A DNA stretch of 64,000 bases, taken from contig NC_135571.1 of the NCBI RefSeq assembly GCF_964340395.1, positions 1,761,611 to 1,825,610 on the forward strand, read 5' to 3'. The notes under the pieces are model-generated. The model was given only the letters and a program-made list of their open reading frames with translations. It made no database searches and was not told the DNA's origin. Source of the DNA: Glandiceps talaboti. Lineage: Eukaryota > Hemichordata > Enteropneusta > Spengelidae. Position 1 is the first letter of the stretch, and each line of letters opens with the position of its first letter. The position numbers and the translations under genes were made by a program. Shown one piece after another: positions 16,228 to 52,809 of this stretch.

Positions 16228-16235
16228 ATATTGTA

Positions 16236-16494
16236 CCTCATGCTAGAGGGTCAAAATAGAACAAGAAGGTTGACTTATTCTCAGTACCTGTAATAACATT
16301 TTACATCATGCTAGAGGGTCAAAATAGAACAAGAAGGTTGACTTATTCTCAGTACCTGTAATAACATTTTACATCATGCTAGAGGGTCAAAATAGAACAA
16401 GATGGTTGACTTATTCTCAGTACCTGTAATAGCATTTTACATCATGCTAGAGGGTCAAAATAGAACAAGAATGTTGACTTATTCTCACACACAC
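16236..16494. repeat. 68-bp tandem repeat x4
   Basis: CATGCTAGAGGGTCAAAATA recurs at 16,239, 16,307, 16,375 and 16,443. The copies are nearly identical. Confidence 0.95.
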
Positions 16495-19739: not shown

Positions 19740-20345
19740 AATATATGAAATGCTAAAATGCAGTTTCTGCGGTTGGATCTGGAATCATTCCGATGAAATC
19801 ACTAGAATGTGGTTTTGGTATTCGGGTCTGGTATCAATTCAGTGAACTAATGAAGATGTGGTTCCAGCTTTAGGCTGTGGAATCACTTCTATGAATCACT
19901 AAAACAAAGTTTCTGCATTTGGATCTGGCACCATTTCAATGAAACCATTAAAATATGGTTTCTACATTCAGATCGGTGATCAATTCCAAATAGTCACTGA
20001 ATTGTCAGTTCTCTCTTTGTTTGGACCGTGAACGATAATTCCGACGCACTCAGTAAAATGTAATTTCTACGGTCGGATCTGGGACCATTTCGATGACTAC
20101 AATATAATTACTTCATTCAGATCTGGCAACATCTCAATGAACCCACTAAAATAAAGTTTCTTCGAAAAGATCTGGCACGTACCACTCCAACGAAATCACA
20201 AAATTACGGTTTAAACATTCGGATCTGGAATCATGTTTATGAACTCACTAAAATGCAGTTTCAGCATTCAGACCTCGCACCATTTTGATGAAATTACTAA
20301 AATGCGGTTTCAGCATTCGGATCCGGTATCATTTCAATACTGCTA
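19740..20345. repeat. Degenerate ~50-bp tandem repeat overlapping the end of the TBC1D15-like CDS
   Basis: A unit built on AAAATG-GGTTTC--CATTCGGATCTGG-ATCATTTCAATGAA recurs about 12 times at roughly 50-bp spacing, with considerable divergence. The gene-proximal unit contains the last codons and the stop (20,297-20,299, minus strand) of the TBC1D15-like gene, so the array forms its 3' UTR and extends beyond. Confidence 0.8.
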
Positions 20346-20518
20346 TTGTTAGAATCAATACAGTCCATATGTCCGTTGTTATGTTCATCGCTATGGAGAC
20401 CAAGTATGTCCTTAATGGTGCCTGGCAACTGTTCACACTGTGTTAGCTGTAGATAAATACCCTCTGCTTTCTTCAATGTGTCTTCTATGTCAATACCAAG
20501 AGACAGTTCATTGATATG
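20297..20518 (-). CDS. TBC1D15: TBC1D15-like terminal exon
   Basis: [20 protein letters not shown] follows NDILK exactly as in the family. A poorly conserved tail ends [10 protein letters not shown] and a TAG stop. The last dozen codons lie in the old 50-bp tandem repeat. Confidence 0.93.
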   Translation of the reverse strand, partial: HINELSLGIDIEDTLKKAEGIYLQLTQCEQLPGTIKDILGLHSDEHNNGHMDCIDSNNSSIEMIPDPNAETAF

Positions 20519-23500
20519 CTACAAGAAAAGAGTAATACAGAGAAAATCAAAATGGAATTTTTCAACAAATAATGATGTGTATACGTAGTGATCTCTTTGT
20601 ATTTACAAATACAAGTCCTGTCATGACAGAGATTATGGTATAGAGCCTGTAGAGGCAGTGAGACAGCTTAGAATGTCTCTTACCTTAAGAATGTTATTAA
20701 ACCCACAATCATTCTGTATCAACAGTGTTTTTGCTAAGGTTTGGGAACCCCGGTAACAGAAAGGGGGAAAGAGGTAAAACTGGTAGTGCTTCCCATGCAA
20801 TGTATCATAATTTTGGTGGGGAACCCCGGTAAAATGATGTTGGAACCCCTGTAGATTTTACCTACTTACCGCCCTTAAATAAAACACTGATCAATGTTTG
20901 TTTTTCTGTGTCTAATATACCCCTTACCTTAAGAATGTCATTAAATCCACAATCATTCTGTATCAATGTTTGTTTTTCTGTGTCTAATATACCCCTTACC
21001 TTAAGAATGTCATTAAATCCACAATCGTTCTGTATCAATGTTTGTTTTTCTGTGTCTAATATACCCCTTACCTTAAGAATGTCATTAAATCCACAATCAT
21101 TCTGTATCAATGTTTGTTTTTCTGTGTCTAATATACCTCTTACCTTAAGAATGTCATTAAATCCACAATCATTCTGTATCAATGTTTGTTTTTCTGTGTC
21201 TAATATACCCCTTACCTTAAGAATGTCATTAAATCCACAATCATTCTGTATCAATGTTTGTTTTTCTGTGTCTAATATACCCCTTACCTTAAGAATGTCA
21301 TTAAATCCACAATCGTTCTGTATCAATGTTTGTTTTTCTGTGTCTAATATACCCCTTACCTTAAGAATGTCATTAAATCCACAATCATTCTGTATCAATC
21401 TTTGTTTTTCTGTGTCTAATATACCCCTTACCTTAAGAATGTCATTAAATCCACAATCGTTCCGTATCAATGTTTGTTTTTCTGTGTCTAATATACCCCT
21501 TATCTTAAGAATGTCATTAAATCCACAATCGTTCCGTATCAATGTTTGTTTTTCTGTGTCTAATATACCCCTTATCTTAAGAATGTCATTAAATCCACAA
21601 TCGTTCCGTATCAATGTTTGTTTTTCTGTGTCTAATATACCCCTTATCTTAAGAATGTCATTAAATCCACAATCGTTCTGTATCAATGTTTGTTTTTCTG
21701 TGTCTAATATACCCCTTACCTTAAGAATGTCATTAAATCCACAATCGTTCTGTATCAATGTTTGTTTTTCTGTGTCTAATATACCCCTTACCTTAAGAAT
21801 ATCATTAAATCCACAATCATTCTGTATCAATGTTTGTTTTTCTGTGTCTAATATACCCCTTATCTTAAGAATGTCATTAAATCCACAATCATTCTGTATC
21901 AATGTTTGTTTTTCTGTGTCTAATATACCCCTTACCTTAAGAATGTCATTAAATCCACAATCATTCTGTATCAATGTTTGTTTTTCTGTGTCTAATATAC
22001 CCCTTATCTTAAGAATGTCATTAAATCCACAATCGTTCCGTATCAATGTTTGTTTTTCTGTGTCTAATATACCCCTTATCTTAAGAATGTCATTAAATCC
22101 ACAATCGTTCTGTATCAATGTTTGTTTTTCTGTGTCTAATATACCCCTTACCTTAAGAATGTCATTAAATCCACAATCGTTCTGTATCAATGTTTGTTTT
22201 TCTGTGTCTAATATACCCCTTACCTTAAGAATGTCATTAAATCCACAATCATTCTGTATCAATGTTTGTTTTTCTGTGTCTAATATACCTCTTACCTTAA
22301 GAATGTCATTAAATCCACAATCGTTCTGTATCAATGTTTGTTTTTCTGTGTCTAATATTGAAAGACATATGAGTAAATGATAGTTACTGCATGGAAGACC
22401 GGTCCACATCACCTGAAGAAAAAATACAAACATTCATTAGTAAACCACTCCATTGAAAGAATGGTATTCAAACCCCACCTGGCTTATCTTAGAATTAAAC
22501 CAACTCATATTCAGGTAATTTAACAACCTTATCATAACATGCATATCAGTCATTTCCCCATTTACAGTCAAACAAATCTCTTCTTATGTCAACAGTGCTC
22601 AAACTGAAGTAGAGCCAGGATTTGAACTATACATGTATGTCAACACAATAATCTGTAAATTGTGATTACATCCTGTACATTGGCAACATTTATGTTCCAT
22701 TAATTAGCCCCACCAAACCCTGATAATTCGGCAAAACAGGGGTTGTTCCCTAACGCACTGAATATGTCATGTATTTCAGTTTGCAATACTATATTACCAT
22801 TCTTGTCATGACGGTAACAAAAATATCATTGTGTACAAATGTAGTTAAATTCATTCAAGAATGGTATAGACACTGGCCTTCTATAAACAGACACCAAGGC
22901 AGTATACATAAATACAGCCAAGATCACTATTTTGTCTAAAAAACACAGTCTGGTCAACATCAATAGAGTTCAATCAATGGTTGATTTTTCCCCTTTGAAA
23001 ATGCTACTAAGTGAGAGGCTGGGTGTCTCTTTATGAATCGGTTGTAATCGGCATAAAAACATCGTTATGCACAAAAGTGTGCCTGGTGAATGAAGTTCAT
23101 TCAAGAATGTTATTTAGAGACACTATAACAAACACCAAGCTACACTACATAAATACAGCCAAGATCACAATTTTGTCTAGAAAGTACAGTCAGCTCATCA
23201 TTAGAATAGAACCAATCTGATGAAAATCCGATGTAGTGTACACACGTGGCTTCTTTTTGGCTGTTACATTTACTGTCATTTGTTCTTTTGTGAACACTCA
23301 TTACATACATCTGACACAATACCAAAGGTTTTCCCCGAACAAAATCTCGAGCTTACTAAACAACTAGAATCCATCTTACAATATAACACTGGTTCAAATA
23401 CAATGTTGCAGCAAGGACTATACTTTACACAAAACAGTGGTTTTAGTTGTAGTACCATCAAATGATTACAGATTAGTGAAGAGGCAAGTCAGCGAATCAG

Positions 23501-23739
23501 AAAATTTGAACTGAAGGTGAAAAGTTGTCATTTGGATTTGAAATATGCTTACCTCCCAGAGTCTCATGATATCTGCGAAGGAAAATTCTCTTTTGAACTT
23601 TATCAGCAGCCATCGGAAACAGAAGTACAAGTTGCTAGAATCTTTAGAATCTGTATGGAAGGAAAATATGAAAATCAATGGAGTCACAGGTCTATGGGAG
23701 ATATAGGGACTTTGACAAGACTTTAATACATACCAGGCC

Positions 23740-23796
<57 letters not shown>

Positions 23797-26700
23797 AACA
23801 GATAGACAGATGGCCTGACAGATTGAAAGTCAGGCAACCAGAGAGACAGCCAGATAAGAAGGTAGACAGTTAGTCAGATACTGAGATTGGCAGAAAGTCA
23901 GATAAGAGAGACAGTCAGCCACCCAATCAACCAACTAACCTACCAGACACGATAGGCAGAAGGGACTGATAGACAGACAGACAGACAGACCACCAACCAA
24001 CAACAGCCAGCAAGCCAAACAGCCAGAGAAACAGACAGACAGACAAATACCCACAAACAGCTCAACAGACAAGACTGGCAGAAAGCAGGCAGATAGAGAG
24101 ACAAAGCTAGATAGTCAGCCAACCATACAAATGGACAGATAGACAAACAGCTAGCCAGTCAGTTAGAGACAATGGCAGCAAGGCTGACAAAGAGAGAGAG
24201 ACAGAGACAGAGACAGAGACAGAGACAGACAGACCCATTTGTGCATACACTTACCTAGGTAGTTATAAAGCTCTGGGTCCAGGAAATGTAAAAGAGTATT
24301 TAGATTTATGAGTTGCTGTTTCATCCCTTCTTGGTCCAAGTCAAAATTATTTCTCTGAAATCACAAAATAAAACAAACTGAATGAAACAACTTTCCCTTT
24401 TATCAGATATTGACTATGTGTTATAAGGTTAAACGCTTTTATACACCAGACAGCATCAACTTACAATGCCTTCCACATCCATAAAAGAACTTTGAATGAA
24501 TCTACTTACCACGCCTTCCATGTCAATGAAACTGATAATAAATCTACTTACCACGCCTTCCATAGCCATAAAACAACTGATAATAAATCTACTTACCACA
24601 CCTTCCATGTCAATGAAACAACTGATAATAAATCTACTTACCACACCTTCCATGTCAATGAAACAACTGATAATAAATCTACTTACCACGCCTTCCATGT
24701 CAATGAAACAACTGATAATAAATCTACTTACCACGCCTTCCATGTCAATGAAACAACTGATAATAAATCTACTTACCACACCTTCAATGAAACAACTGAT
24801 AATAAATCTACTTACCACACCTTCCATGTCAATGAAACAACTGATAATAAATCTACTTACCACGCCTTCCATGTCAATGAAACTGATAATAAATCTACTT
24901 ACCATGCCTTCCATGTCAATGAAACAACTGATAATAAATCTACTTACCACACCTTCCATGTCAATGAAACAACTGATAATAAATCTACTTACCACACCTT
25001 CCATGTCAATGAAACTGATAATAAATCTACTTACCACACCTTCCATGTCAATGAAACAACTGATAATAAATCTACTTACCACACCTTCCATGTCAATGAA
25101 ACAACTGATAATAAATCTACTTACCACGCCTTCCATGTCAATGAAACAACTGATAATAAATCTACTTACCACACCTTCCATGTCAATGAAACTGATAATA
25201 AATCTACTTACCACGCCTTCCATGTCAATGAAACAACTGATAATAAATCTACTTACCACGCCTTCCATGTCAATGAAACTGATAATAAATCTACTTACCA
25301 CGCCTTCCATGTCAATGAAACAACTGATAATAAATCTACTTACCACACCTTCCATGACAATGAAACAACTGATAATAAATCTACTTACCACACCTTCCAT
25401 GTCAATGAAACTGATAATAAATCTACTTACCACACCTTCCATGTCAATGAAACAACTGATAATAAATCTACTTACCACGCCTTCCATGTCAATGAAACAA
25501 CTGATAATAAATCTACTTACCACGCCTACCATGTCAATGAAACAACTGATAATAAATCTACTTACCACGCCTTCCATGTCAATGAAACAACTGATAATAA
25601 ATCTACTTACCACGCCTTCCATGTCAATGAAACAACTGATAATAAATCTACTTACCACACCTTCCATGTCAATGAAACAACTGATAATAATCTACTTACC
25701 ACGCCTTCCATGTCAATGAAACAACTGATAATAAATCTACTTACCACGCCTTCCATGTCAATGAAACAACTGATAATAAATCTACTTACCACGCCTTCCA
25801 TGTCCATAAAGCCAACAAAACACCAGAACGCATCCACTTCATCTTCCATGACAACTAGGATAGGTGATAACAGATCACTCATTCCTTGCACGTATCCTAA
25901 CATAGTCAAAGTCAAAGTCAAAGGTATTAGACCATAGGAAACATTTTGTCACATTTCATATATATTTACGATAAACATCCAATCAATCAGACATTACTAT
26001 AAAAAGCTAGTGATCTCCACTGTGCGGAGATGTCAACGAAATGTCCAAATATTCAGGTGGAGTCCTGCAATGCTGAAATATTGAGAAGTCCCATTTTTGT
26101 ATCGGGACAACTTTTGCCTCCTTTACTGTTTATAAGTATGAACCCAAGTACAAACTGTTGTCATATGACAGCATGAATTCTCACGTGCTGCACCCCATCT
26201 CTGGAATGCACTGCCACTGGAAATACGACAACCAACAGCTAACGTCTTCAAAAAGAACTTAAAGACATATCTGTTCTCCAGAGCATTCTAACTGTACAGC
26301 GCCTCTGTACTCTACATCGTAGTGGAAACTGGTACTTCATAAATTCACTAATTGATTGATTGTAAGTTTAGCAATGTAACTAGATGGGTACATATGCTTC
26401 ACAAAGTAGAATGCTATCTTTAATCTACAATAAAAGTAACACCCCAAAACTATATAAACTCAGCTTGTGCCCCTTTAAAACGATTGTAAACTTACCTAAG
26501 TCAAAGTTATACTGACAATATGTCATAAGTATATCATATAACATTGCAATGTTAGGATTATTTGCACCTTCATAACATGGATGAGTTCTGTCTGTCCGAC
26601 TTACGTCTTTATCTGTAAGACAAAACAAACAACGGTTGTTGAAACTTACAAAATATCATATCTTGTTATGACATTTAGAAAGTTCACACATTAATCATCT

Positions 26701-29700
26701 TGTTTTTGTTAGCTTCATGGTTAACTTTTGTCTGACAATTTATCATCTGTGCACTGACTGTCTCTGCCAGTTAATTAACTTACCAACTAAACATAAATTT
26801 TCTGTAAGTTAATTAACTTACCAACTAAACACAAATTGTCTCTGTGAGTTAATTAACTTACCAACTAAACACAAATTGTCTCTGTGCGTTGCATTCCTTT
26901 TAGCTTGTTCATCACTGATAGATTTCCATTGTAGTTTCATTCTAAAATAGTCGTCTCTGTCAGAAAACGAAATAGATCATATTAATTCTGAGTACATGCA
27001 ATACCATTTCACCTCAGGGACAATCACACAAGCTCAATAAATGAACATTGTTCGCTTAGGCCAAAAACCCCCTCCCCTCCCCTCCCTACATGGACATTCA
27101 CAAGTGCGACATCGACACGTTTATATATGATGTAAACTATATGATGATAATTGTGATGGTCACACCACTATGAATCATAGTACCATACTATCATAGTATG
27201 ATTGATGCAATGTAAAAATATGGTAAACATTAAAATATAAACCGGATACCTAGGCTAGCACTGTAGATCACATTAACATTAAAATATAAACCGGATACCT
27301 AGGCTAGCACTGTAGATCACATTAACCTTAAATTAACCAACCTATCAACCCCTCAGGAGTAAATACAGAACCTGTTATCATTGAAGGCGTGAAAGTTGTC
27401 GAAATTTGGTTAGAAGTGGGACAAGTCTTCACAGAAGACACCCCCCCCCCCTCCCCCAATACTTTACTTCTATGTGACTGAATGAAGACATCCATGGAGG
27501 CAAAACAGAACATTGTAAATACATAAATGACAAACTGCACTGCAAATGAAATAGACTACTGTGATTCATATCAATCTGTGATGTCTCTATTTTTGCAAAA
27601 ATATACCCCTACAGAATGGACTGCCTTAAAGTTTTCTAAGTCAGTGTTGTAGCCAGAGGGGGTTTTTGGGTCATTTGACACATATGTTTTGGACCTGACC
27701 CACAATTTCTGAAGTGACGGGTCACAGATGACCCACACTAAAACTGTATGCAAATGTGTTTAGCAACATGACCATGCCTATAGCAACAGCCAAATGATCG
27801 CGTGTATTGCATCGATAACAACAGGGTTGGATAGGCAACTGCATAATCATTCAGCAAATATCTAACATTGATCAACATGTGGGTCAATATTTTAAAAAAC
27901 TGTACAGTTGTGCTACAACGCCATTGGCAAAAAAATTTATGATGACCAAGAAAAATGAAAGTTCGGGACACTATGTTCCACTCTTTCAAAAGTCTGGCTG
28001 CAACACTGATTTCTTTGAATAGTGGACAGGTTGAATAACCGACTAGTTTTGTACTTACTCTCTCTGTTTCCTCAACTCCAGTCTGTCTTTTTTGGTTGAA
28101 CTCCATTCATAATAATTTAATAAAAATTTCCATACTTCCTTTCTGTTAGAATGATAAAGCCCCTTGAGAAGAAAAAATAATAACATGTTAGCAGTTCAAA
28201 TATAAATTACTTACAAAGCTATAACATTCAGGTTGTTTTAAATACTTTGTTAAGGGAGGAGCAAACACATTGAGTATGTCAGCAGGTGTTATGGCTTTGG
28301 ACATGGAAAATTCACAAACAAAATGGCTGCCAGGCAGCCATATTGGATCGTATCACGATGAAAATGAATATACACATGTATGTCATAGAACACTGTCCTA
28401 ATACCAACTTTGAATGAGATCTGTTCAAGTATGTCAGAGTTATGGCTTTGGACAGGGAAAATTCGCAAACAAAATGGCAGCTAGGCGGCCATATTCGATC
28501 GTATCATGAAACAAATTGACGTGCATATGTACGTACCGGGGGTATGCCATTGTATGTTGCCCCTGTACCAAGTTTGAAAAAAATCGGTCCAGGCATCTCC
28601 AGGAAACGGCTCTGGACGGACAGTCAGACGCACGGACACATGGACAGACGGAACCCAATCCATAAGTCCTTGTCTCGGACTTTGTCTGGCGGGGACTAAT
28701 GAAGCTAATCACCCTTAAACTTACCCCATGAAATATTCTCTGTATCAGTTCATGTATCCTTATTACCCTTCCATCAGAGTCTAAATGATGCTGCCATTCT
28801 TCTGGTATGACAGGATCTTCTCTTCTCACATCAGGTCTGGGTCCCAGTGTGCTCTGTAACACATCAAAAATAAAGTACAAAGTTAATTAAAAATAACACA
28901 CCAGGTCTGGGTCCCAGTGTACTCTGTAACACATTAAAATAACACCACTAAAATCTCATGGATTTTTCAACCATACATTTTACGTAAGTTTGTCTTTTTC
29001 ATCACTGGTTTATATGTCTCTTTATATGTTTACTTTTGAAGAAACTATTTACTGCATATTCCATCCACTTATCATCTGACAGAAGATAAGTGAAATTTAA
29101 AGTACACACATTATACTAAATTGATGTAAGTGAATATAAAATGACTTCTGTTGACTTTATGCTCATGTCAAAGTTTGTATACACCAACAACATAATAGTA
29201 CAGGGAAATTGGAGTTAGCTTGGCATTTCACTTATGGGACATTGCTTACATGTACACACAATCAGATAATTTAAAATGCAAAATATATAATTACACACAT
29301 GCTGTGCACAGTTTGGATGTAGCAAACTGCTGGCACAAGGCTACGCATCTGTGGAGGGGCATTAGTCGAGATCCACCAGCATGCTAGAAATGGTTTAGCC
29401 CAATACTTCACGATGGTGGATTTTGACAAACACGGCTGCATGTGTTGATTCATGTTTGCTTGCAAATAAGTTTTAGCATGTATTTGTATTTAGTACACTG
29501 TTTTTAGTCAAAAGCAGGGCTTCAGATTCAGACAGTAGCCCTGTCTACACGGCACTAAAAATCCTACCCGAGGTAGGATTCAGGATAGTTTGAAGCCTGT
29601 GTAGACGCAAACGCGTCCTGAACCTGTCCTGAAACTGTCCTGACTTAGGACACCTTTGAAAGGTTTCCTGAAACCCTCCTGACTTCGTCCTATGTACTGT

Positions 29701-32700
29701 CAGGACGGAAGGCGCGACATCTACGCTGTAACCTTCCCACGTGTAGACACAAATCTATCCTACCTCAGGTAGGACTTGGGACTGCCTCAGGTAGGACGAC
29801 CTACGTGTAGATGGGGCTACTGTCAGTGTAACATTCATAAAATACAACCTATAATTCCTACCTGTGTGATCAGTTCATATCCTGGTTCTGTACGTGGGTT
29901 GATCTCTACTCTAGGAAGGTCTGGCATCAAATCAGCCATTTCATCAATAGGTCTGTGTTGTGCTGTTTGTGTCATGAGGGAGTCTTTCAAGAAGTTTGTC
30001 ACCTTAGAGAAACCACCCATTGTAGCCGAGTAGGGGTCTTTGAAGAATTTCTACATTGTGAAATAACATGAATGAATTAGTTGTATGTATGAAAATGCAC
30101 AGATGCACACACGCACAGATGATGCATGGATGGACAGATGATGCATGGACACACACACAGATGGACAGATGGAGCCCATTGTAATAGCACCCCCTTTGAG
30201 GGTCAAGCGGACCTCAACACTGAGCTAACATGGTGTTAGAGACAAAACCCCTTCCAGTTATTAACATGCTGGATAGGTATTAGTGCCAGACATAACAATG
30301 TACTATAAACCTAAATATTTCCACCACCAAAAAATTTTGTGATGTTAAAGTCTTCAACTCGTTCTCAAAGACTAATTTGTATGAATTACTAAGCCCGGTG
30401 TACTGTTTATGTACAAGAGGCATTTAGTTACTACTTACATGTACTTTCATACAAGAATGACTGTTCATGGGCTCTGAGTTCATACCTAGTAATGAGATTT
30501 CTACTCACAAGAGTCAAACTATTTCTTGGAAGCGAATCAAAATTTGTTGTGATTAGGAGTGTACTACAATGGGCTATTTGTCATGTATATTTTTATGTTT
30601 TTTTCAGTGAAATAGGTAACAATACATGTAACGAAATTATATACAAAACAAAGAGAAAAAATGTTTAATATTATTACTACTGTAAACCCAAACTTTATAC
30701 ATTTAGATGGAGTAGAGCAATTTACATATATACTACAATCAAAACATAAGGATATTATAACTGCTCTTTTCATATACCTGAATAGTAGTAAAATAGACAA
30801 ACACTAGAACTATTTTATACTTTCATATTTATAACTTAGTTATTTACTTAGATTATTATTAACTTTATTTCTTTTAAATACCAAATTAGAAATGTACAAT
30901 TTTCTAAACGGTTGAAATAAAGTTTTACCTTATCTTATCTTGTAAGTGTTCAGCAGAACTTTTCAGGTTTACAGTATGTACAGCACTAGAATATCTTTCT
31001 GATATGTTAGCTTGAAGTCAACATGATGTCAACACTTTATGGTCTGGTTGCTATTCATTTGTTTTGAATCTAAAGAATTTGCCACTAACAAAATTTAGTA
31101 GTATGATATTGATATGTGTATTAGCATGAGTATATTGTATGGCAATGAAAGCTCTGTGCCAATCACTATCACTTGTGAGTGAAATACCAGCTGTTTCAAC
31201 CAGGTCAAAGGTCAAGGAAAATACAATTGTAGCTGGTACCTCTAAATTACACTGGGAATAAGTGTTATCTGGCAGTGTGGGTTTTATATCACATTGATTA
31301 TTTACTACATTTTAAGGCAAGGTTTTCGATCCTAGGTTCTAGCATTAGTGTTGTCTTATATCTGAAATTATAGTTTTGTCCAAAGTGTAGTCAAAACAGC
31401 ATCATTTATAGATGAACCTGCTATCAGTTTGCCTTTCAAATTGGCTATACCTCTTATCTGAAGAGTCACTGAAACTATAGTAATATATGTACATTGTAAC
31501 ATGTATCAATGACAGCTGTACTGGGTACAAACAGAGTGTTACAGTGTAACACTCACAGACATGGTTTCATTTTCACAATGTTTTGGATAACATCTCAGAC
31601 AACTTTTACTTACAAACAGTTGAGAGAAAAACTGCACATTTTTTTAAAAAATTTGATTAACATCCCTGATTGTATACTTACAGAGACATAGCCAGCTGAT
31701 TGTATACTTACAGAAACATAGCCAGCTGATTGTATACTCACAGAGACATAGCCAGCTGATTGTATACTTACAGAGACATAGCCAGCTGACGTCTCACCAA
31801 ATATATGCAATTCATGGATTGACTTGGATAAAGCATGGCTGTCATGTGGTGTCACTAAAAACTGACGAGGGTCGTCTGTTGATCTGTAAAAGTGTCAATA
31901 AATGTAAAATTAACACATTGGGTGGTTAAATACAGCAATGACTTTGCTAATGATGTGTCTGTCAGTGTCTGTCTGTCTTTCTGTGCTTGTCTGTCTGTCT
32001 GTGTCTTTCTGTGCTTATCTGTCTGTCTGTCTGTCTGTCTGTCTTTCTGTGCTTGTCTGTCAGTCTGTCTGTCTGTCTTTCTGTGCTTGTTTGACTGTCT
32101 GTCTTTCTGTGCTTGTCTGCCTGTCTGTCTTTCTGTGCTTGTCTCTCTGTCTGTCTGTCTGTCTGTCTTTCTGTGCTTGTCTGCCTGTCTGTCTGTCTGT
32201 CTTTCTGTGCTTGTCTCTCTGTCTGTCTGTCTGTCTGTCTGTCTTTCTGTGCTTGTCTGCCTGTCTGTCTGTCTGTCTGTCTGTCTTTCTGTGCTTGTCT
32301 CTCTGTCTGTCTGTCTATCTGTCTGTCTGTCTGTCTGTGCTTGTCTGTCTGTCTGATATTGTTTGTTATCTATCTGTGCTTAAGTGCCCGCCTGTGTGTT
32401 TTTTCTTCCTCTGTCTGAAACTGATCAGTACACCAGCCTACACAATAACTGCGTGATAAATGTACACATGAAAGTATAATAACTACGTACCTTGTAATAT
32501 TGACATATCTTTCAATATTTCTCATCATTTCTTTACTACCTCCTTCATGAAAATGTAGAGCTGGTAAAGTGACACCATCTTTGAGTACAAACAGTAAATA
32601 AGACCACCCAAGTGACGGCTTGGAACGTTTAATACTACGGAGATCATTTAGGTAAAACTTCATAGCATATTTACTTCTCCTTGTTGGTTGCTGTACTGTT

Positions 32701-35700
32701 ACTTTTTCTGTGAAGAAAATAAAATAAATTATAATATACCTAGTGATAATGCTGTGCCATGATTCGCTAGAATCAGTCACGTGATAGGAAAATAGAATGA
32801 CTATTTCCCTAGGGAAATAGTTCCATCAACTTTTACATGGTCACGTGACCACCGTGCGTTCACAGCAGGTCAAAATGGCAGCTTCTGACGATGTTGTCTG
32901 CCACCGCGAGTTCACAGCATGAGGTATATTATAAAACACATATTGCCTGGCCTATATTCGGGCTATAGCACCCGTTCATTACCCCCTCGTGACTGTGACT
33001 TACCAGAATCACATGCTATTTTACTCGGCCTTTGGCCTCGGGAAATAGCATGTGATTCTGGTAACTCACAGTCCCTCGGGTGTAATAAACGGGTGCTATA
33101 GCCCTCATGGCCAGGCAATATGTGTTCAATATTATACATGTACCAGAGATTACTTGCACTGGTGTTTGTGCATACTAGTGGTATTCTCACTGCAGTGCAA
33201 CACTGAAAACATTACTGCATACCTGCATGCAAATGACATGCAAATGAGAATGTGATTGTTCACTACACACAAAATCGCATGATCACGCTGTATGATTTTT
33301 ATGGAAATTTGCGGTTTAGATAACATATATGTAATAATAACATAACCCCTTGCCAATTGAGTTCCAGTGTGGGTACTCAGGGGTATCTGCATTCATGCTT
33401 GCAGTGTTTTCTGCTGCACTTTCACTCACTACGCTCATGAAAGTACGGGCGTAGAAATAGCTGACTTATCACCATAGTTACAAAGATGGGAATAGTTGTA
33501 ACATTTATAATTGACAAAACAGACAATACAATGGGTACATGTATGTACATTTTATTAAACAAATGAAACACTGGGACAAAACAGTAGCTAGACACTGTTT
33601 AAGAATGGGAAGAAAAGACCTACCACGATGAGATCGGCCAACTGTTTAGTAGGGGAAAAAAAGTGTATATAGTAAGAAGTGAACAGTTGGAAAATAAGAT
33701 AACTACAATATACCAAACATTTATTCATTTTTGATATTTTTTCAATCTAATTTTTTGCACCAGAATGTATAGATACTTACCGGTACAGTGAGTTATCTAT
33801 GATGTTAACACTACATGACTTGAGTTATCTATGACGTTAACACTACATGACTTGAGTCATCTATGACATTAACACTACATGACTTGAGTCATCTATGACA
33901 TTAACACTACATGACTTGAGTTATCTATGACGTTAACACTACATGACTTGAGTCATCTATGACATTAACACTACATGACTTGAGTCATCTATGACATTAA
34001 CACTACATGACTTGAGTTATCTATGACGTTAACACTACATGACTTGAGTCATCTATGACATTAACACTACATGACTTGAGTCATCTATGACATTAACACT
34101 ACATGACTTGAGTCATCTATGACATTAACACTACATGACTTGAGTCATCTATGACGTTAACACTACATGAGTTGAGTCATCTATGATGTTAACACTACAT
34201 GACTTGAGTCATCTATGACGTTAACACTACATGACTTGAGTCATCTATGACGTTAACACTACATGACGAGTCATCTATGACATTAACACTACATGACTTG
34301 AGTCATCTATGACATTAACACTACATGACTTGAGTCATCTATGACGTTAACACGTCATGACTTGAGTCACCTATGACATTAACACTACATGACTTGAGTC
34401 ATCTATGACATTAACACTACATGACTTGAGTCATCTATGACGTTAACACTACATGACTTGAGTTATCCATGACATTAACACTACATGAGTTGAGTTACTA
34501 TGACGTTAACACTACATGACTTGAGTCATCTATGACATTAACACTACATGACTTGAGTCATCTATGACGTTAACACTACATGACTTGAGTCATCTATGAC
34601 GTTAACACTACATGACTTGAGTCATCTATGACATTAACACTACATGACTTGAGTCATCTATGACATTAACACTACATGACTTGAGTCATCTATGACATTA
34701 ACACTACATGACTTGAGTCATCTATGACGTTAACACGTCATGACTTGAGTCATCTATGACATTAACACTACATGACTTGAGTCATCTATGACATTAACAC
34801 TACATGACTTGAGTCATCTATGACGTTAACACTACATGACTTGAGTCATCTATGACGTTAACACTACATGACTTGAGTCATCTATGACGTTAACACGTCA
34901 TGACTTGAGTCATCTATGACATTAACACTACATGACTTGAGTCATCTATGACATTAACACTACATGACTTGAGTCATCTATGACATTAACACTACATGAC
35001 TTGAGTCATCTATGACGTTAACACGTCATGACTTGAGTCATCTATGACATTAACACTACATGACTTGAGTCATCTATGAAGGTAACACTACATGAGTTGA
35101 GTTATCTATGACGTTAACACTACATGAGTTGAGTTATCTATGACATTAACACTACATGACTTGAGTCATCTATGACAGTAACACTACATGACGAGTCATC
35201 TATGATGTTAACACTACATGACGAGTCATCTATGACGTTAACACTACATGACTTGAGTCATCTATGACGTTAACACTACATGACTTGAGTCATCTATGAT
35301 GTTAACACTACATGACTTGAGTCATCTATGACGTTAACACTACATGAGTTGAGTTATCTATGACATTAACACTACATGACTTGAGTCATCTATGACAGTA
35401 ACACTACATGACGAGTCATCTATGATGTTAACACTACATGACGAGTTATCTATGACGTTAACACTACATGACTTGAGTCATCTATGACGTTAACACTACA
35501 TGACTTGAGTCATCTATGACATCAACACTACATGAGTTAAGTCATCATTGCCTCAACTGTAGGGGGTGCTGTGTATTGCCTCAACTGCCTAGGGGACGCT
35601 GTGTATTGGAAAGGTCTACAAGAAAGTACAAAGCTTACCTTGTTCTTGACCAGTTTGTTTTTTATATCCTACAGCATTAATCACTGCCCACTCTTTGTCA

Positions 35701-38700
35701 GGCTGTTCATCGTCTATCTCATGATCATTCAGGGGGTTCCACTCCATGAATTGCAGATCTCCCTACAATGCAAACATCATATTTCTGTTGTGAAATTGAC
35801 TGTATCAATATGTTGCAGTAGTTTATGGTTCATACTCTGATTGGAAGTACTATAATACAGTCTTTTACCTTATCAATAAGTCGGACTCGTCCACCAAGAA
35901 GTGTGTCTTCATCCTCAGAAGTACCAACAGCTGTATGGATAAACACACCACCCTTCTCAAACACTGTCTGCAAAAAAAAGAGAGAGAGAGAGAGAAAGTG
36001 AGAGACTGTATTCTCCAAAATTAAAGAACGATGAAGCCTTATTATAACATGTAATAACAAGGGAGGGAGACAAGGTGGAGAGATCTTGTACAAAACTATA
36101 ATGTGCATACATGTCCATACTTCAAACATACATTTTGGCATGGAACCTCATAAGGTACAATGCACATGTACATGTATTATCTGATACTGGGAAACATCAA
36201 GGTAGATTTTACCCACATGTACTTGCCATGCGCCAAGAACAAAAACAGTGTCTCAATGTACACGTAAACAAAATTTGCTGTCATGGTGGTTGGAAAAAAA
36301 CATTTGTTGTGGGGTCCAAATCCTCCCCGCCAATCAAATGGTTTATCCCTAACAACAACATGGTTTTTATTTACATTTGTATGTACAGTTTGTGTCACAT
36401 ATATAAATATTAGTAAACTTTAACAGTATGGTAAATGTACATGTATCAATTCAAATCAGAAGTCAACATATATATTTACTCTTTGTACACTTTATATAAC
36501 TTTTGATATTTACAATGTACACCTATTGCATTTTTTCTGTGGCCATACTTTCACAGGGCTTGAAATTAACAGTATTCCCATGTCAACAGACTACCAAATT
36601 AAAATGAAATTTGTGTTCACAGCAGTTCATTGAAGTGTATATGTGTGTGTACGTGTATGTACGTGTGTCGCTATGATTAGTATTCAGCTTCCGAGCCGAA
36701 CATGGCAGACGATGTTCAGCGCTGTGTATATTATACGTTGTTTTGCGTTTCTCGGTCTACAAATTCACTAGAATTGGCAAAACTATAAAATAATAACAAT
36801 AATGTACGCCCTCCCAATCCATAATGGACTCAAGCAAACTTTGCACTCCATAATGGGCTCGGCTGTCGCCTCGCCCATTATGTCGTTCAAAGTTTGCTTT
36901 CGTCCATTATGGGCTGGGAGGGCGTACATTATTGTTTAAACATTAAAGACCTACCAAAACAAGAGAGGGATAAACTAAACTGAAAAGTCAGTATACTGGA
37001 TGTACGATGGTTTTTTTTACGTCTTAGTATCGTAACATCTTTTATAACTAAAAAACATGCACACGTACATCTTATTGCAAAGATCTGTAAATTACTTTCC
37101 TACGTGATTTTGAAAGAGTGGGAAGAGTTGAAAATGGGACGAATTGAAATTATTGGGGTGAAGTGAATCGCAATCAGTTCTGTCATATCAAGTCACACTG
37201 CAATGTATGCTGGGAGAAGTCACACTGCAATGTATGCTGGGAGTTGGGGATTTAACATTGTAACTAAGAGACACTGTGATATTTTTAAAGATACAACAAT
37301 AATTTTTTAGCTTCATTTTTGTCTACCAATGTATCTACTTTTATTATTTTAGTGTAATTGATATCTGAGATTCTCAATGCAAAGAAATGTATAAATAACT
37401 GACTAAATAACTAAATACATAGAACATATATAGGTACATACATACATACATATACACATACATAAATACATACATACATACATACATACATACATACATT
37501 TAATACATCTAAATGCTATGTGTTGTCCATAAAGCGCCATGGAGCCAAAGCCATTCGTTTTTATACTATGTGCAATACGCTATTGAAATCTGTGAACTCT
37601 ATCAATTATTTAGGTGTACTTTTCAGCGACAATTTATCATTCTCACCCCATATCACACATATTTGTTCTAAAGCTAGTCGTACTCTTGGATTCCTCATGA
37701 GAAACCTTCGCAACTGTCCAACAAAGTTACGCGAAACTGCATACATATCGATGTGTCGTTCTAGCTTAGAATATGCAGCCCCCATTTGGGATCCATACTT
37801 AGTAAAGGACATTGTAAGAATTGAAAAGATCCAGCGATGAGGTGCTCGTTTTGTTAAACGAGACTATTCTAGAAGATCCAGTGTAACAAACATGCTACAG
37901 AGTTTGAAATGGGAACCATTAGCAGATAGACGACAAAATGCTAGATTAATATTACTATTCCAAATTGTAAATGGGGAAATAGCAATCACTAGAGACACCA
38001 GTCTTCTAGCACCAGGTAGAAGAGGCCGTTTTAAGCACCTTGGGTTTAAACACCAAGCATATCAGCACAGTTTCTTTCCTAAAACCATTAGGGACTGGAA
38101 CTCACTAAGCCCTGATATGAAAGTCTGTCAGGACACTGATACTTTCAAGGCAAATCTACATAAACACTACTACTAGGTTTTTGTATGCACCCCTTCCCCC
38201 AGCTGTGATATCCGTAAGGAGATTAGCTGGTATTATATAGATAGATAGATACATACATACATACATACATACATACATACATACATACATACATACATAC
38301 ACACATACACATACATACATACATACATACATACACACATACACATACATACATACATACATACATACATACATACATACATACATACATACATACATAC
38401 ATACATACATACATACATACATACATACATACATACATACATACATACATACATACATACATACATACACACATACACATACATACATACATACATACAT
38501 ACATACACACATACACATACATACATACATACATACATACATACATACATACATACATACATACATACATACATACATACATACATACAAATGTATACAC
38601 ATACATACATTAAATGAGACATAACACGTACATTCTTTGTGCTATATCATATGTTAACATGTAAAAAGTTGGAGATCATCCAAGCACACATAATTTTTGC

Positions 38701-39254
38701 CTATGTTTACTATAAAAGTCTGTACCTAGTCAAATCTGAAATCGTGAAGGAAGCTGAGAGAACGGGTAATGAAACTTGACAAGTAAAGCAGTCCCAAGGT
38801 TTTAACTCCTCGTCCCTTCCTGGTTAACTGACGTGTACTTTGGTATCACAATACTTTGGCATCGTCGGGATCAGTAACTGAGTAAGGCTGAAATCTCACT
38901 CGCAATATATCAAGCTGACCAAATATTGGCCCTTTCTATGCCAAAGAGAATAAGTCGAATTTATGTGCCCCGACTCTAACGATCTTGTCAGTGGTTATTA
39001 TGTTAAAAGATGAACGCCATCATGTGACTTTGTATTACTAATGTTATTTATATTATCGGTTTGTTGACAAATTTCAAAAGATGTATTTCTACATAAACAA
39101 CACGATCTCACACTTGAAATCTCCTCTGTAGATATAAAATGATACTGGGAGATCTCGTACAGAATTGTGATAAGTTTGAAGACGTTTGTACTGATTTATT
39201 AAAAAAAATCTACGACGACATACGTACCTTACACTTCAGTCGAGCAGTCGCCAT
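20297..39254 (-). CDS. TBC1D15: TBC1 domain family member 15/17-like Rab GTPase-activating protein, complete, 16 inferred exons
   Basis: Exons in transcript order: 39254-39228, 35967-35869, 35762-35639, 33641-33624 (18-nt microexon, less certain), 32707-32491, 31883-31772, 30050-29862, 28853-28725, 28162-28059, 26956-26862, 26612-26496, 25896-25790, 24354-24255, 23650-23553, 22412-22296, 20518-20297. All junctions are GT-AG and phases agree throughout, giving about 624 aa (family about 650-690). The N-terminal half holds the Rab-binding-type region of this family ([22 protein letters not shown]). The C-terminal half is a TBC domain with the arginine-finger region [10 protein letters not shown] and the glutamine finger YVQGM, so GAP catalysis should be intact. 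In other animals these proteins act on Rab7-type GTPases at endolysosomes and mitochondria. TBC1D15 versus TBC1D17 cannot be separated here, and a pre-duplication ancestor is possible. Several exon ends are embedded in tandem repeats. Confidence 0.93.
20680..20745. repeat. Decayed outlying copy of the 72-bp exon-end repeat
   Basis: Contains TCTTACCTTAAGAATGTTAT and CCCACAATCATTCTGTATCA. It resembles the 72-bp unit but is separated from the main array by about 140 bp. Confidence 0.8.
20885..22355 (-). repeat. 72-bp exon-end/splice-donor minisatellite, 20 units
   Basis: Exact 72-bp spacing of the exon end and donor from 22,296 down to 20,928. Each unit (minus strand) holds the coding end of the TBC exon, a donor-like site and 15 bases of intron. 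Fourteen units keep GTAAG. Six (around 22,080, 22,008, 21,864, 21,648, 21,576 and 21,504) read ATAAG instead. The unit is 24 codons without a stop, so both strands stay open through the array; the plus-strand frame is an artefact. Confidence 0.97.
22296..22412 (-). CDS. TBC1D15: TBC1D15-like exon ending in a 72-bp repeat
   Basis: 39 codons: [20 protein letters not shown] then [19 protein letters not shown], end of the TBC domain. The proximal donor is AAG before GTAAGA. The last 57 or so bases plus the donor repeat 20 times towards lower coordinates. Confidence 0.95.
22413..23552. other. TBC1D15-like intron with a ~243-bp tandem duplication
   Basis: No other gene seen. The blocks CATTCAAGAATG, then ACACCAAG, then ACATAAATACAGCCAAGATC occur near 22,800-22,990 and again near 23,040-23,230, an old two-copy duplication. 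Confidence 0.7.
23553..23650 (-). CDS. TBC1D15: TBC1D15-like exon, TBC domain
   Basis: Encodes [19 protein letters not shown] and [10 protein letters not shown], nearly identical to the family ([17 protein letters not shown]). Confidence 0.97.
23736..24232. repeat. (CAGA)n-derived low-complexity intron
   Basis: CAGACAGA runs degrade into CCAGCCA/CCAAC-rich sequence and end in (GAGACA)n. They occupy most of the intron between two TBC exons. Confidence 0.9.
24255..24354 (-). CDS. TBC1D15: TBC1D15-like exon, TBC domain
   Basis: Encodes [20 protein letters not shown] and [18 protein letters not shown]-type microsatellite begins about 20 bases after the donor. Confidence 0.95.
24465..25805 (-). 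repeat. 45-bp exon-end/splice-donor minisatellite, ~30 units
   Basis: The unit (minus strand) is GACATGGAAGGCGTG, then GTAAGTAG and TTTATTATCAGTTGTTTCATT: exon end, donor and early intron. Units are 45 bp, many are 42 bp and one is shorter, all multiples of three. A one-base deletion near 25,690 is the only break of frame in the array. G/A variation at the CACGCC/CACACC position is frequent. Confidence 0.97.
25790..25896 (-). CDS. TBC1D15: TBC1D15-like exon, glutamine finger, ending in a 45-bp repeat
   Basis: Encodes [20 protein letters not shown] through [15 protein letters not shown], the most conserved TBC segment. Its last 15 or so bases and the donor GTAAGT head an array of about 30 copies. 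Confidence 0.95.
26173..26355 (+). mobile_element. 3' end of a CR1/Jockey-like LINE
   Basis: Frame 26,173-26,291 reads [20 protein letters not shown] and [13 protein letters not shown] then stop, the typical end of a LINE second open frame (WN.LP..IR....FKK.LKTYLF). A short 3' UTR follows and ends in GATTGATTG. The rest of the element is missing (5' truncation). It lies antisense in a TBC1D15-like intron. Confidence 0.85.
26496..26612 (-). CDS. TBC1D15: TBC1D15-like exon, arginine-finger region
   Basis: Contains [16 protein letters not shown] (IxxDxxR-type arginine finger) and [13 protein letters not shown], leading directly into the glutamine finger on the next exon. Confidence 0.95.
26768..26890 (-). 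repeat. 40-bp exon-end/splice-donor duplication, 3 copies
   Basis: AATTTGTGTTTAGTTG plus GTAAGTTAATTAACT occurs three times (spacing 40 and 38 bp). The exon-proximal copy is the real exon end. Each copy also carries a CACAG or TACAG that could act as an acceptor. Confidence 0.95.
26862..26956 (-). CDS. TBC1D15: TBC1D15-like exon ending in a 40-bp repeat
   Basis: Encodes [19 protein letters not shown] and so on to HRDNLCLV, joining D of DKDVSRTDR. The exon end and donor are the first of three tandem copies spaced 40 and 38 bp. Those spacings do not keep frame, so use of a distal donor would shift the frame. Confidence 0.93.
27222..27326. repeat. 49-bp tandem duplication
   Basis: CATTAACATTAAAATATAAA through CTAGCACTGTAGATCA occurs twice in direct succession in an intron. 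Confidence 0.9.
27640..27980. repeat. Dispersed repeat fragment
   Basis: Shares AACATGACCATGCCTATAGC and AACAGCCAAATG with 52,028-52,060, marking a dispersed repeat family present twice in the window. Confidence 0.55.
28059..28162 (-). CDS. TBC1D15: TBC1D15-like exon, TBC domain
   Basis: Encodes [20 protein letters not shown], the conserved TBC motif A region (G...R...W.FLL..Y.W). Confidence 0.95.
28270..28695. repeat. Two-copy ~153-bp repeat ending in a GGACAGAC-rich tail
   Basis: ATGGCTTTGGACA, AAACAAAATGGC and GCCATATT are repeated at 28,290 and 28,443. The second copy continues into TTTGAAAAAAATCGGTCCAG and a CGGACAGTCAGACG tail, which looks like a dispersed non-coding element. Confidence 0.7.
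28725..28853 (-). CDS. TBC1D15: TBC1D15-like exon, entry to TBC domain
   Basis: 43 codons, [15 protein letters not shown] to IQRIFHG, matching the family stretch ending MIFRGG. The 3' splice site and first exon bases have a diverged duplicate 70 bp upstream in the intron. Confidence 0.93.
28831..28945 (-). repeat. 70-bp duplication of a 3' splice site
   Basis: CCAGGTCTGGGTCCCAGTGT plus the adjoining CTCTGTAACACAT is present at the TBC exon start (28,831-28,865) and again 70 bp further into the intron (28,901-28,935). Confidence 0.92.
29533..29822. mobile_element. Foldback MITE with CAGTAGCCC termini
   Basis: The left end CAGTAGCCCTGTCTACACGG is mirrored by a right end of CGTGTAGATGGGGCTACTG. 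The interior is rich in TCCTGA/TCAGGA and CTACCTC/GAGGTAG blocks. No transposase. I saw no clear target duplication. Confidence 0.85.
29862..30050 (-). CDS. TBC1D15: TBC1D15-like exon
   Basis: 63 codons from [17 protein letters not shown] to GYELITQ. Matches the family signature KKDPYTAT-GFSKVTNY. Phase 0 at both ends. Confidence 0.95.
30051..31660. other. TBC1D15-like intron, nothing recognised
   Basis: About 1.6 kb of AT-rich intron without a coding exon, RNA gene or structured repeat that I could identify. Confidence 0.5.
31665..31795 (-). repeat. 30-bp exon-end/splice-donor repeat x4
   Basis: The unit (minus) is AGCTGGCTATGTCTCT plus GTAAGTATACAATC. Donors fall at 31,771, 31,741 (GTGAGT), 31,711 and 31,681. 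Ten codons per unit with no stop, so each extra unit would add ten residues. Confidence 0.95.
31772..31883 (-). CDS. TBC1D15: TBC1D15-like exon ending in a 30-bp repeat
   Basis: 37 codons from [15 protein letters not shown] to ETSAGYVS, joined in phase 0 to [13 protein letters not shown]. The exon end and donor (TCT before GTAAGT) form the first of four tandem copies, so more distal donors at 31,741, 31,711 and 31,681 are alternatives. Confidence 0.88.
31955..32372. repeat. (CTGT)n with TTTCTGTGCTTGT higher-order unit
   Basis: CTGT repeats punctuated regularly by TTTCTGTGCTTGT fill the intron between two TBC exons. Frames here are artefacts. Confidence 0.95.
32491..32707 (-). CDS. TBC1D15: TBC1D15-like exon (N-terminal Rab-binding-type region)
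   Basis: Contains [20 protein letters not shown] and [15 protein letters not shown], hallmark stretches of the TBC1D15/17 N-terminal half. The donor AAG before GTACGT splits an Arg codon. Confidence 0.92.
32936..33125. mobile_element. Foldback element E
   Basis: ACACATATTGCCTGGCC..GGGCTATAGCACCCGTT mirrors AACGGGTGCTATAGCCC..GGCCAGGCAATATGTGT. Pairing continues through CCAGAATCACATGCTATTT to a centre at GGCCTTTGGCC. Intronic, non-coding. Confidence 0.9.
33624..33641 (-). CDS. TBC1D15: Possible 18-nt microexon
   Basis: Flanked by a good acceptor (CCCCTACTAAACAG) and donor (GTAGGT). The length is a multiple of three and it fits the phase-1 junction between exons 3 and 5, adding about six residues (VGRSHR). 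Skipping it also keeps frame. Not proven by sequence alone. Confidence 0.45.
33786..35542. repeat. 32-bp minisatellite, ~54 units, AP-1/CRE-like sites
   Basis: The unit is TGACTTGAGTCATCTATGAC plus RTTAACACTACA. Most units contain TGAGTCA, the AP-1/bZIP heptamer, and many contain TGACGT with GTTAAC. A few units have lost three bases (ATGACGAGTC). The array lies in a TBC1D15-like intron, and its low-coordinate edge abuts a donor-like GTAAGTATC (minus, about 33,778). Confidence 0.93.
35543..35612. repeat. 33-bp duplication next to the 32-bp array
   Basis: ATTGCCTCAACTG..AGGGG..GCTGTGT occurs twice in succession just before exon 3. Confidence 0.7.
35639..35762 (-). CDS. TBC1D15: TBC1D15-like exon 3
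   Basis: 41 codons plus one base, starting [15 protein letters not shown]. Acidic and probably loop-like. The donor is G before GTAAGC. Confidence 0.85.
35869..35967 (-). CDS. TBC1D15: TBC1D15-like exon 2
   Basis: 33 codons beginning [15 protein letters not shown], matching the conserved EGVYIHS stretch near the family N-terminus. The acceptor tract is a CT repeat ending TTTGCAG. Confidence 0.9.
36797..36940. mobile_element. Foldback element F
   Basis: AACAATAATGTACGCCCTCC mirrors GGAGGGCGTACATTATTGTT. Inner arms share CCATAATGG and GCAAACTTTG. It lies in TBC1D15-like intron 1. Confidence 0.9.
37420..37503. repeat. (ATAC)n microsatellite
   Basis: CATACATA repeats immediately before the LINE fragment. 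Confidence 0.9.
37503..38176 (+). mobile_element. C-terminal part of a CR1/Jockey-like LINE reverse transcriptase
   Basis: Two adjacent frames read [33 protein letters not shown] and then [27 protein letters not shown], the thumb and C-terminal part of a LINE reverse transcriptase. A single TGA at 37,838-37,840 splits them. The polymerase core and 5' part are absent (5' truncation). The end (HKHYY, stop) is followed by a short UTR, GATA repeats and a long ATAC array, the kind of tail such LINEs carry. Antisense within TBC1D15-like intron 1. Confidence 0.9.
38237..38590. repeat. (GATA)n/(CATA)n microsatellite
   Basis: About 350 bp of CATACATA with ACACAT interruptions, directly after the LINE tail. 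Confidence 0.97.
39228..39254 (-). CDS. TBC1D15: TBC1D15-like exon 1 (start codon)
   Basis: Encodes MATARLKCK and ends AAG before GTACGT. The start codon sits inside AAAATGGCGAC, a good initiation context. It joins exon 2 in phase 0. Confidence 0.8.
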
Positions 39255-46746: not shown

Positions 46747-46749
46747 GTA

Positions 46750-47335
<586 letters not shown>

Positions 47336-52500: not shown

Positions 52501-52809
52501 AAAATTGCGCCATCGTCTTCAGATGTTGAGCCACCTCCTTCAGATGTTGAGCCATGTCATATTTATGCTGAACTGTCTCCTTCACATGTGGTTGAATCGA
52601 CCATTCACCTTGACAGCCACCCTGTCCACCTTTTTGTTTATTTGTACATACCAATTTTAATTCTGGTGAAACTTTGTAATTTTATTCACGAACCTACTGT
52701 AAAAGATGTACCAAAAAAACAAACAAGAAAATCAAAACCAATCTTAAAACGTCCAAGTAAGAGGAAGCAATATGAATCGACTCCCACAAAGAAAAGGAAG
52801 AAAACCTAG
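49149..52809 (+). CDS. Unrecognised protein with Pro/Ser repeats and basic tail, 5 exons
   Basis: Exons 49149-49572, 50197-50297, 50445-50647, 51203-51320 and 52120-52809 join in frame (GT-AG) to about 511 aa. I do not recognise the family. Residues 1-70 are Ser-rich and low complexity. Roughly 75-300 look globular and mostly helical (HYKLLNFNLHRGRNTVAEYV, EEVFDHLIYDMMSLIIMGET). After residue 300 comes a Lys-rich stretch, then about five imperfect 14-residue repeats (VEPSPLKVAPSSSD), a hydrophobic segment VYLYIPILILVKLCNF, and a strongly basic tail (KRPSKRKQ, PTKKRKK) that could be a nuclear localisation signal. The start has a good context (GCGATGG) and a TGA in frame just upstream. AATAAA at 53,088 may be its poly(A) signal. 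Confidence 0.72.
50197..50297 (+). CDS. Unknown-protein gene exon 2
   Basis: ENDEILQYALDLLQECEEDF to YTALK; helical and acidic. Acceptor TATTTTGTAG. Confidence 0.75.
50445..50647 (+). CDS. Unknown-protein gene exon 3
   Basis: HYIYNDFKVKEKTTLTEDV to GETCRLDYRI. Acceptor CTATAACACAG, donor GTAGGT. Confidence 0.75.
51203..51320 (+). CDS. Unknown-protein gene exon 4
   Basis: LYGATKRQFEICGSQVTSF then LLAYEPNLHQYPVMLSE. Donor GTATGT. Confidence 0.72.
51395..52075. repeat. Dispersed element with ~150-bp internal repeats
   Basis: TTGGTCAAAAA, CTCCAAAACTACTGG, AGATTGG and TGAAATTTGG recur three to four times at about 130-160-bp spacing. The end, ACATGACCACGCCCATAGCA, is shared with 27,766. It lies in the last intron of the unknown-protein gene. 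Confidence 0.7.
52120..52809 (+). CDS. Unknown-protein gene exon 5 (terminal)
   Basis: 229 codons plus stop. Contains the 42-bp (14-codon) tandem coding repeat around 52,380-52,560, a hydrophobic stretch and the basic C-terminus. Confidence 0.72.
   Translation, partial: NKSGLPEKKSTASSRPYKKPHMEHKKISQVIGHAVSVADESVFETDDYKIVYHISLKGLGKLIITRTHVAKNTLKKIKEGCLVKKKVVPSPSNVEPSPLKVAPSSSDVEPSPLKVAPSSSDVEPPHSKIAPSSSDVEPPPSDVEPCHIYAELSPSHVVESTIHLDSHPVHLFVYLYIPILILVKLCNFIHEPTVKDVPKKQTRKSKPILKRPSKRKQYESTPTKKRKKT

Follow-up and report, generated by a model that had tools for sequence, protein, structure and literature searches.

Tandem arrays spanning four splice donors of a TBC1D15-like gene in the hemichordate Glandiceps talaboti resemble amphioxus mirages

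In the 64,000-nt stretch of Glandiceps talaboti DNA that was analysed (the window), four splice donors of a single TBC1D15-like gene were found to lie within tandem arrays. The donors are those of exons 15, 12, 10, and 6, and each repeat unit in the four arrays runs from the end of the exon across the donor into the start of the intron. The initial annotation had reported these arrays with 20 copies of 72 bp, about 30 of 45 bp, 3 of 40 bp, and 4 of 30 bp; the observation was confirmed, and the copies now number 21, 31, 3, and 4, respectively. The four donors probably represent minisatellites of the type named 'mirages', in which the exon-proximal donor would be the one mainly used and the remaining copies would be spliced out together with the intron.

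The TBC1D15-like gene and its arrays

The coding span of the TBC1D15-like gene (20297..39254, minus strand) was defined by a complete open reading frame, Pfam and PDB matches, and the NCBI model of Glandiceps talaboti. Read on the minus strand, the gene is intact, with 16 exons, including a predicted exon E4, running from the ATG at 39254 to the TAG at 20297, and with introns that are all GT-AG. The exons form a single frame of 624 amino acids, or 618 amino acids without E4, which is a predicted, frame-neutral microexon of 18 nt (33624..33641, minus strand) missing from the NCBI isoform examined. The Pfam analysis of the protein revealed a RabGAP-TBC domain (2.3e-49) and the PH_RBD Rab-binding domain, and its best PDB matches were pig TBC1D15 (top) and shark TBC1D15. 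The top protein match was the NCBI entry 'TBC1 domain family member 15-like isoform X2 [Glandiceps talaboti]' of 618 amino acids, which was identical to the gene reading over 618 residues, the sole difference being the six residues of E4. The second-best match was that of Ptychodera flava (83%), and the Branchiostoma entries among the matches listed reached at most 58%. On these identities, amphioxus, to which the mirage pattern had pointed, was rejected as the source in favour of a hemichordate of the family Spengelidae. The window also holds two neighbour genes, LOC144453078 and LOC144453003, which both match NCBI proteins of Glandiceps talaboti; by eye, the product of LOC144453078 (42848-46749) resembles a CARD-type and coiled-coil protein. 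The comparison of the window with Rfam yielded no matches.

The arrays were located by TRF and then split at the donor to count copies, and the exon ends were placed by the gene reading together with this splitting. The 72-bp unit of array A1 consists of the last 63 bases of exon 15 (22296..22412, minus strand) and 9 intron bases. A1 contains 20 whole copies (20919..22358, minus strand; TRF call, 20890-22358) and, on the intron side, a 21st copy (20675..20918, minus strand) that is split by an insert of 167 bp (20723..20889, minus strand); the joined flanks of this copy amount to exactly 72 bp. The insert has imperfect terminal inverted repeats (CAGTGTTTT...) and TTGAT on each side, and in these features resembles a non-autonomous DNA transposon of small size. 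After splitting at the donor, GTAAG was intact in 15 of the 21 copies, and the six losses were all changes from GT to AT. The sequence GTAAGAG is present in both the exon copy and the 21st copy; among the 19 whole copies between them, 18 carry TAAGGGG (12 with GTAAGG and 6 with ATAAGG) and one carries GTAAGAG. Intact A1 units carry AAG/GT at the exon end.

The end of exon 12 (25790..25896, minus strand) lies inside the 45-bp unit of array A2 (24455..25804, minus strand), which has 31 copies spaced at 41-45 bp (45 bp in 21 of the 30 spacings) and an intact GTAAG in every copy. Array A3 (26759..26890, minus strand) comprises three copies of 38-40 bp, each with the donor as GTAAG, and the end of exon 10 (26862..26956, minus strand) is contained in its 40-bp unit. 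The 30-bp unit of array A4 (31666..31789, minus strand) includes the end of exon 6 (31772..31883, minus strand); GTAAG is found in three of its four copies and GTGAG in the fourth, GT being kept in all. These counts agree with the earlier statement that most copies hold an intact donor. The arrays had also been described as independent, which stood in so far as their units, judged by eye only, are unlike each other; the four units share no sequence but the donor (by eye), which suggests separate events. The copy numbers may be off.

A fifth site with a duplicated 3' splice site had been noted as well, and was found again at exon 8, the acceptor of which matches a copy 70 bp upstream at 35 of 40 bases (28810..28953, minus strand). 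Splicing to the upstream copy would bring in a stop 19 codons on. The stop codon of the gene (TAG, 20299-20297) lies inside a degenerate 49-bp array that also covers the 3' flank (20192..20334, minus strand; TRF, 75% matches). The initial annotation had called this an older 50-bp array; the position of the stop codon stands, and the word 'older' reflects the lower copy identity alone.

Several other repeats were observed in the window. Its left end (1-11664) is occupied by a 361-bp satellite with 32.7 head-to-tail copies (96% matches). A 68-bp array of 3.8 copies (16230-16487) has TTATTACAGGTACTGAG on its minus strand, an acceptor-plus-donor-like site by eye, and another complex array at 58671 was inspected by eye for splice-like signals; neither array could be matched with a gene. 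Intron 3 of the TBC1D15-like gene contains a 32-bp array of 55 copies (33789-35546) away from annotated splice sites, and a donor-like CCGGTAAGTATC adjoins its intron-downstream edge. Reading frames at 37538-38173 resemble the final part of the reverse transcriptase of a non-LTR retrotransposon. In LOC144453078, a long GA microsatellite (46747-47309) starts no more than about 10 bases past the donor of exon 7 (AAG/GTACGT), and a coding exon of LOC144453003 includes a 42-bp tandem repeat (52374-52555) encoding a repeated PSPLKVAPSSSDVE-like peptide.

Donor overlap and splicing outcome

Local duplication of splice sites was assessed by comparing the 40 bases centred on each site with its surroundings within 600 bp, for 52 sites of three genes. 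For five sites, a nearby copy agreeing at 35-39 of the 40 bases was present, all of them in the TBC1D15-like gene (4/15 donors and 1/15 acceptors), and the other 47 sites reached at most 24 of 40, giving a cleanly bimodal distribution. In the two neighbour genes, the same test detected duplication at none of 11 donors and none of 11 acceptors; the comparison of donors between the TBC1D15-like gene and its neighbours gave a P of 0.11.

Next, the arrays, each collapsed to a single unit and with microsatellites excluded, were placed at random in 200,000 trials; the resulting P values concern one gene in a window picked for its oddity. For the eight complex arrays, 0.33 donor overlaps were expected and four were observed (P 1.2e-4; exact, 1.6e-4), and the P value was 3.0e-4 with intron length as the denominator. 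The five arrays with at least three copies gave a P of 5e-6 (exact, 1.6e-5), with a cut-off that was picked after the data had been seen. When two-copy pairs, the unit lengths of which (88, 99, and 69) are estimates, and the stop-codon array were added, the 12 duplications gave an expectation of 0.66 against the observed four (P 2.9e-3). Donor overlap above random placement is thus supported within the TBC1D15-like gene (P about 1e-4 for eight arrays).

At the protein level, the NCBI isoform examined, one of two clustered sequences, lacks repeat residues at each of the four array junctions. Since this isoform equals the gene reading minus E4, the exon-proximal donor is used in it at all four arrays, in a model that may rest on homology. 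The Ptychodera flava protein aligns gap-free with the isoform at the four junctions, and no array-like residues were seen there in the aligned proteins of relatives; at the exon 10/11 junction, one isoform from Asterias is longer by five residues, which are unlike the translated A3 unit. A search covering proteins of up to 1.75x query length revealed no repeat-bearing protein. Two further candidates were rejected. Donor sliding at A2, where there are two extra residues with respect to vertebrates, was ruled out because Ptychodera has the same two residues, and coding use of the entire A2 was ruled out because one copy, of 44 bp, breaks the reading frame beyond the third donor.

The predicted outcome of splicing was then counted for every GT[AG]AG site, including the first. 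The protein would be full-length for 14 of the 16 sites in the A1 region, 3 of the 31 in A2, one of the three in A3, and all four in A4. As later donors of A1 and A4 would keep the protein full-length, in-frame repeat-bearing isoforms are possible at these two arrays, with 24 (A1) or 10 (A4) amino acids added per unit. The reading frame of A1 remains open for 477 codons beyond exon 15 and ends within the 167-bp inserted element, and on intron retention the frame would end 42 (A3), 136 (A2), and 160 (A4) bases into the intron. The unit lengths of 72, 45, and 30 bp are divisible by three, unlike that of 40 bp; by simple counting, three or more of four units would be so divisible with a chance of 1 in 9, and the observation therefore says little. 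The U1 pairing energies of the copies were equal or near to those of the exon copies, except for the A1 copies with AT and the last A2 copy. The array donors ranged from -7.3 to -10.7 kcal/mol and the other donors of the gene from -6.8 to -12.4 kcal/mol. The idea that weak donors attract arrays was not borne out, as the array donors as a group were not the weakest by U1 energy.

Chance is a possible, if rather improbable, explanation of the arrays: minisatellites would arise anywhere in a repeat-rich region, four of them happened to include donors, and they were tolerated without any bias toward junctions. The window is indeed rich in tandem repeats (53 TRF rows), and complex arrays that are purely intronic occur in the TBC1D15-like gene as well (at 27226, 33789, 35547, and 37190); moreover, the two neighbour genes have none of their 11 donors in arrays, and the window was selected for its oddity. 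Chance is opposed by the four overlaps observed against the 0.33 and 0.66 expected, and by several unrelated amphioxus genes that, in excerpts of two sources, show the same structure (PMC3087553, PMC3902484). That the repeats were collapsed or expanded as an artefact of assembly is extremely unlikely. Array lengths do hinge on the assembly, and one amphioxus mirage is described as aberrantly assembled in a draft genome (PMC3087553, excerpt), but the copies have individual differences, and an unrelated insert with a target duplication interrupts the terminal copy of A1.

The route proposed in the initial annotation, by which the duplications create alternative donors or new introns and yield mRNAs with a variable number of repeats, appears unlikely. 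Its part on new introns was not supported, because the acceptors of the four introns fall outside the arrays; no acceptor was found inside the arrays by eye, and no new intron between duplicated AGGT sites was seen at any of the four. The part on alternative donors may hold, by frame, at A1 and A4, with the full-length outcomes counted above, the units divisible by three, and the long open frame of A1 all in its favour. The donor of most copies is also about as strong as that of the exon copy by U1 pairing, and in human polyubiquitin, tandem AG/GT sites are spliced to a variable number of monomers (PMC10809524, excerpt). Against it, the NCBI isoform examined uses the exon-proximal donor at each array and lacks repeat residues, the full-length sites are few in A2 and A3, and GT is lost in 6 of the 21 A1 copies. 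A function of the arrays, in which many U1-binding sites at the start of the intron would aid splicing or suppress early polyadenylation, seems very unlikely. It would fit the retention of GT in every copy of A2, A3, and A4, and U1 energies close to those of the exon copy in all but the last A2 copy, but the array donors are not the weakest group of the gene, the same GT losses in A1 count against it, and recent homogenisation alone would keep the copies similar.

Origin and upkeep of the arrays

For the four donor arrays as mirage minisatellites with mainly exon-proximal splicing, the likely origin is as follows. Each array would have been started by a separate tandem duplication across an exon-intron junction, and would then have grown by slippage or unequal exchange. 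Such duplications would be tolerated, and would survive, because the first donor still works and the mRNA stays as it was. Under protein selection, which holds it constant, the exonic copy may feed intact sequence back into the array; this feedback, together with exchange between copies, would keep the array uniform and still able to expand, and purely intronic duplications would decay. Feedback from the exonic copy would explain an excess of arrays at exon edges.

Direct repeats flanking the arrays were compared with shuffled sequences. At A2, 17 of 20 bases match between exon sequence upstream of the array and the intron just past the last donor, which was equalled in 0 of 500 shuffles, and at A3, CAGAGACA flanks both sides, once in the exon and once in the intron (8/8 bases; 17 of 500 shuffles). 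No outstanding flanking direct repeat was detected at A1 or A4, where 435 and 498 of 500 shuffles, respectively, matched as well. Duplication between short direct repeats thus fits two of the four arrays. The likeness between intron and exon at A2 (24420-25849; 17/20) may be the repeat that seeded the array or else an older copy, now worn.

In three arrays, divergence was greatest in the copy lying deepest in the intron. In A1, it had 93.1% identity to the exon copy, compared with an interior median of 97.2%; in A2, 64.4%, a value lowered by a 40-base cut, compared with an interior median of 97.8%; and in A3, 90%. The last copy of A4 is identical to the exon copy, counter to this edge pattern. 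Within A2, identity declines with distance (rho -0.39, P 0.036), and the interior copies of A1 showed no trend by distance. Similarity between adjacent copies did not clearly exceed that between distant copies (A1, P 0.07; A2, P 0.51).

A broader proposal, which we put forward tentatively and consider doubtful, is that one genome-wide process, common to acorn worms and lancelets, both forms and maintains arrays at junctions; in it, the exon copy, preserved by selection, would serve as master template for renewal of the array, and exon edges in these deuterostomes would act as nurseries of minisatellites. If arrays at donors exceed those in introns genome-wide, a mutational bias at junctions or a selection-anchored maintenance of repeats would be at work, and one chromosome-scale genome would suffice to tell why arrays gather at junctions. 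The gene also offers a natural test of donor choice, with up to 31 near-identical donors in succession.

Comparison with known systems

The founding paper on mirages reportedly appeared in Nucleic Acids Research in 2002. The four arrays share with amphioxus mirages a unit that spans the exon-intron boundary, here at four donors, and the retention of the splice signal in many copies (GTAAG or, in A4, GT, as counted above). The name was given to tandem repeats over exon-intron boundaries in amphioxus Adh3, and such repeats are also described in the globin genes BflGb6 and BflGb9 (PMC3087553, excerpt) and in troponin C and PGBD5 (PMC3902484, excerpt). In these excerpts, splicing is suggested to be undisturbed by mirages, and mirages are proposed as a route to new introns. 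The trait of an unchanged mRNA and protein agrees here with one NCBI protein isoform, the second clustered sequence aside. The globin mirages are described with homogenised inner copies from which the edges are excluded (PMC3087553, excerpt), and this may be compared with the GTAAGAG at both ends of A1; edge divergence is present at the intron edge of A1, A2, and A3 and absent in A4. Length instability between haplotypes or tissues is a further mirage trait, and the Glandiceps arrays are known from one assembly stretch. Unlike the amphioxus mirages, the present ones have a hemichordate host, with four donor arrays and one acceptor duplication in a single gene and at most 31 copies.

Tandem duplication that copies splice signals is also known from vertebrate ATP2A1, potato RdRp, and the 24-bp arrays of fission yeast (PMC4974935, PMC3443670, excerpts). 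Unlike these cases, the Glandiceps gene multiplies an existing donor, and no new intron was seen. The polyubiquitin UBC array likewise consists of tandem units each with an AG/GT site, comparable to the AAG/GT of A1, but its repeats are coding monomers present in variable number in the mRNA (PMC10809524, excerpt), whereas the NCBI TBC1D15-like isoform examined is without repeats. Internal tandem repeats of human segmental duplications, which alter gene structure, provide another likeness in the expansion of minisatellites inside genes; the section headings of that source name no donor-centred arrays (PMC2812944).

Donor-spanning arrays themselves are therefore already known from amphioxus. Among the matches listed from the open-licence PMC literature, mirages were reported in lancelets only, with no report from hemichordates. 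Mirages in a hemichordate gene would extend the phenomenon beyond cephalochordates. As far as our literature searches go, what is new here is the occurrence of mirages in a second phylum and of four donor arrays in one gene.
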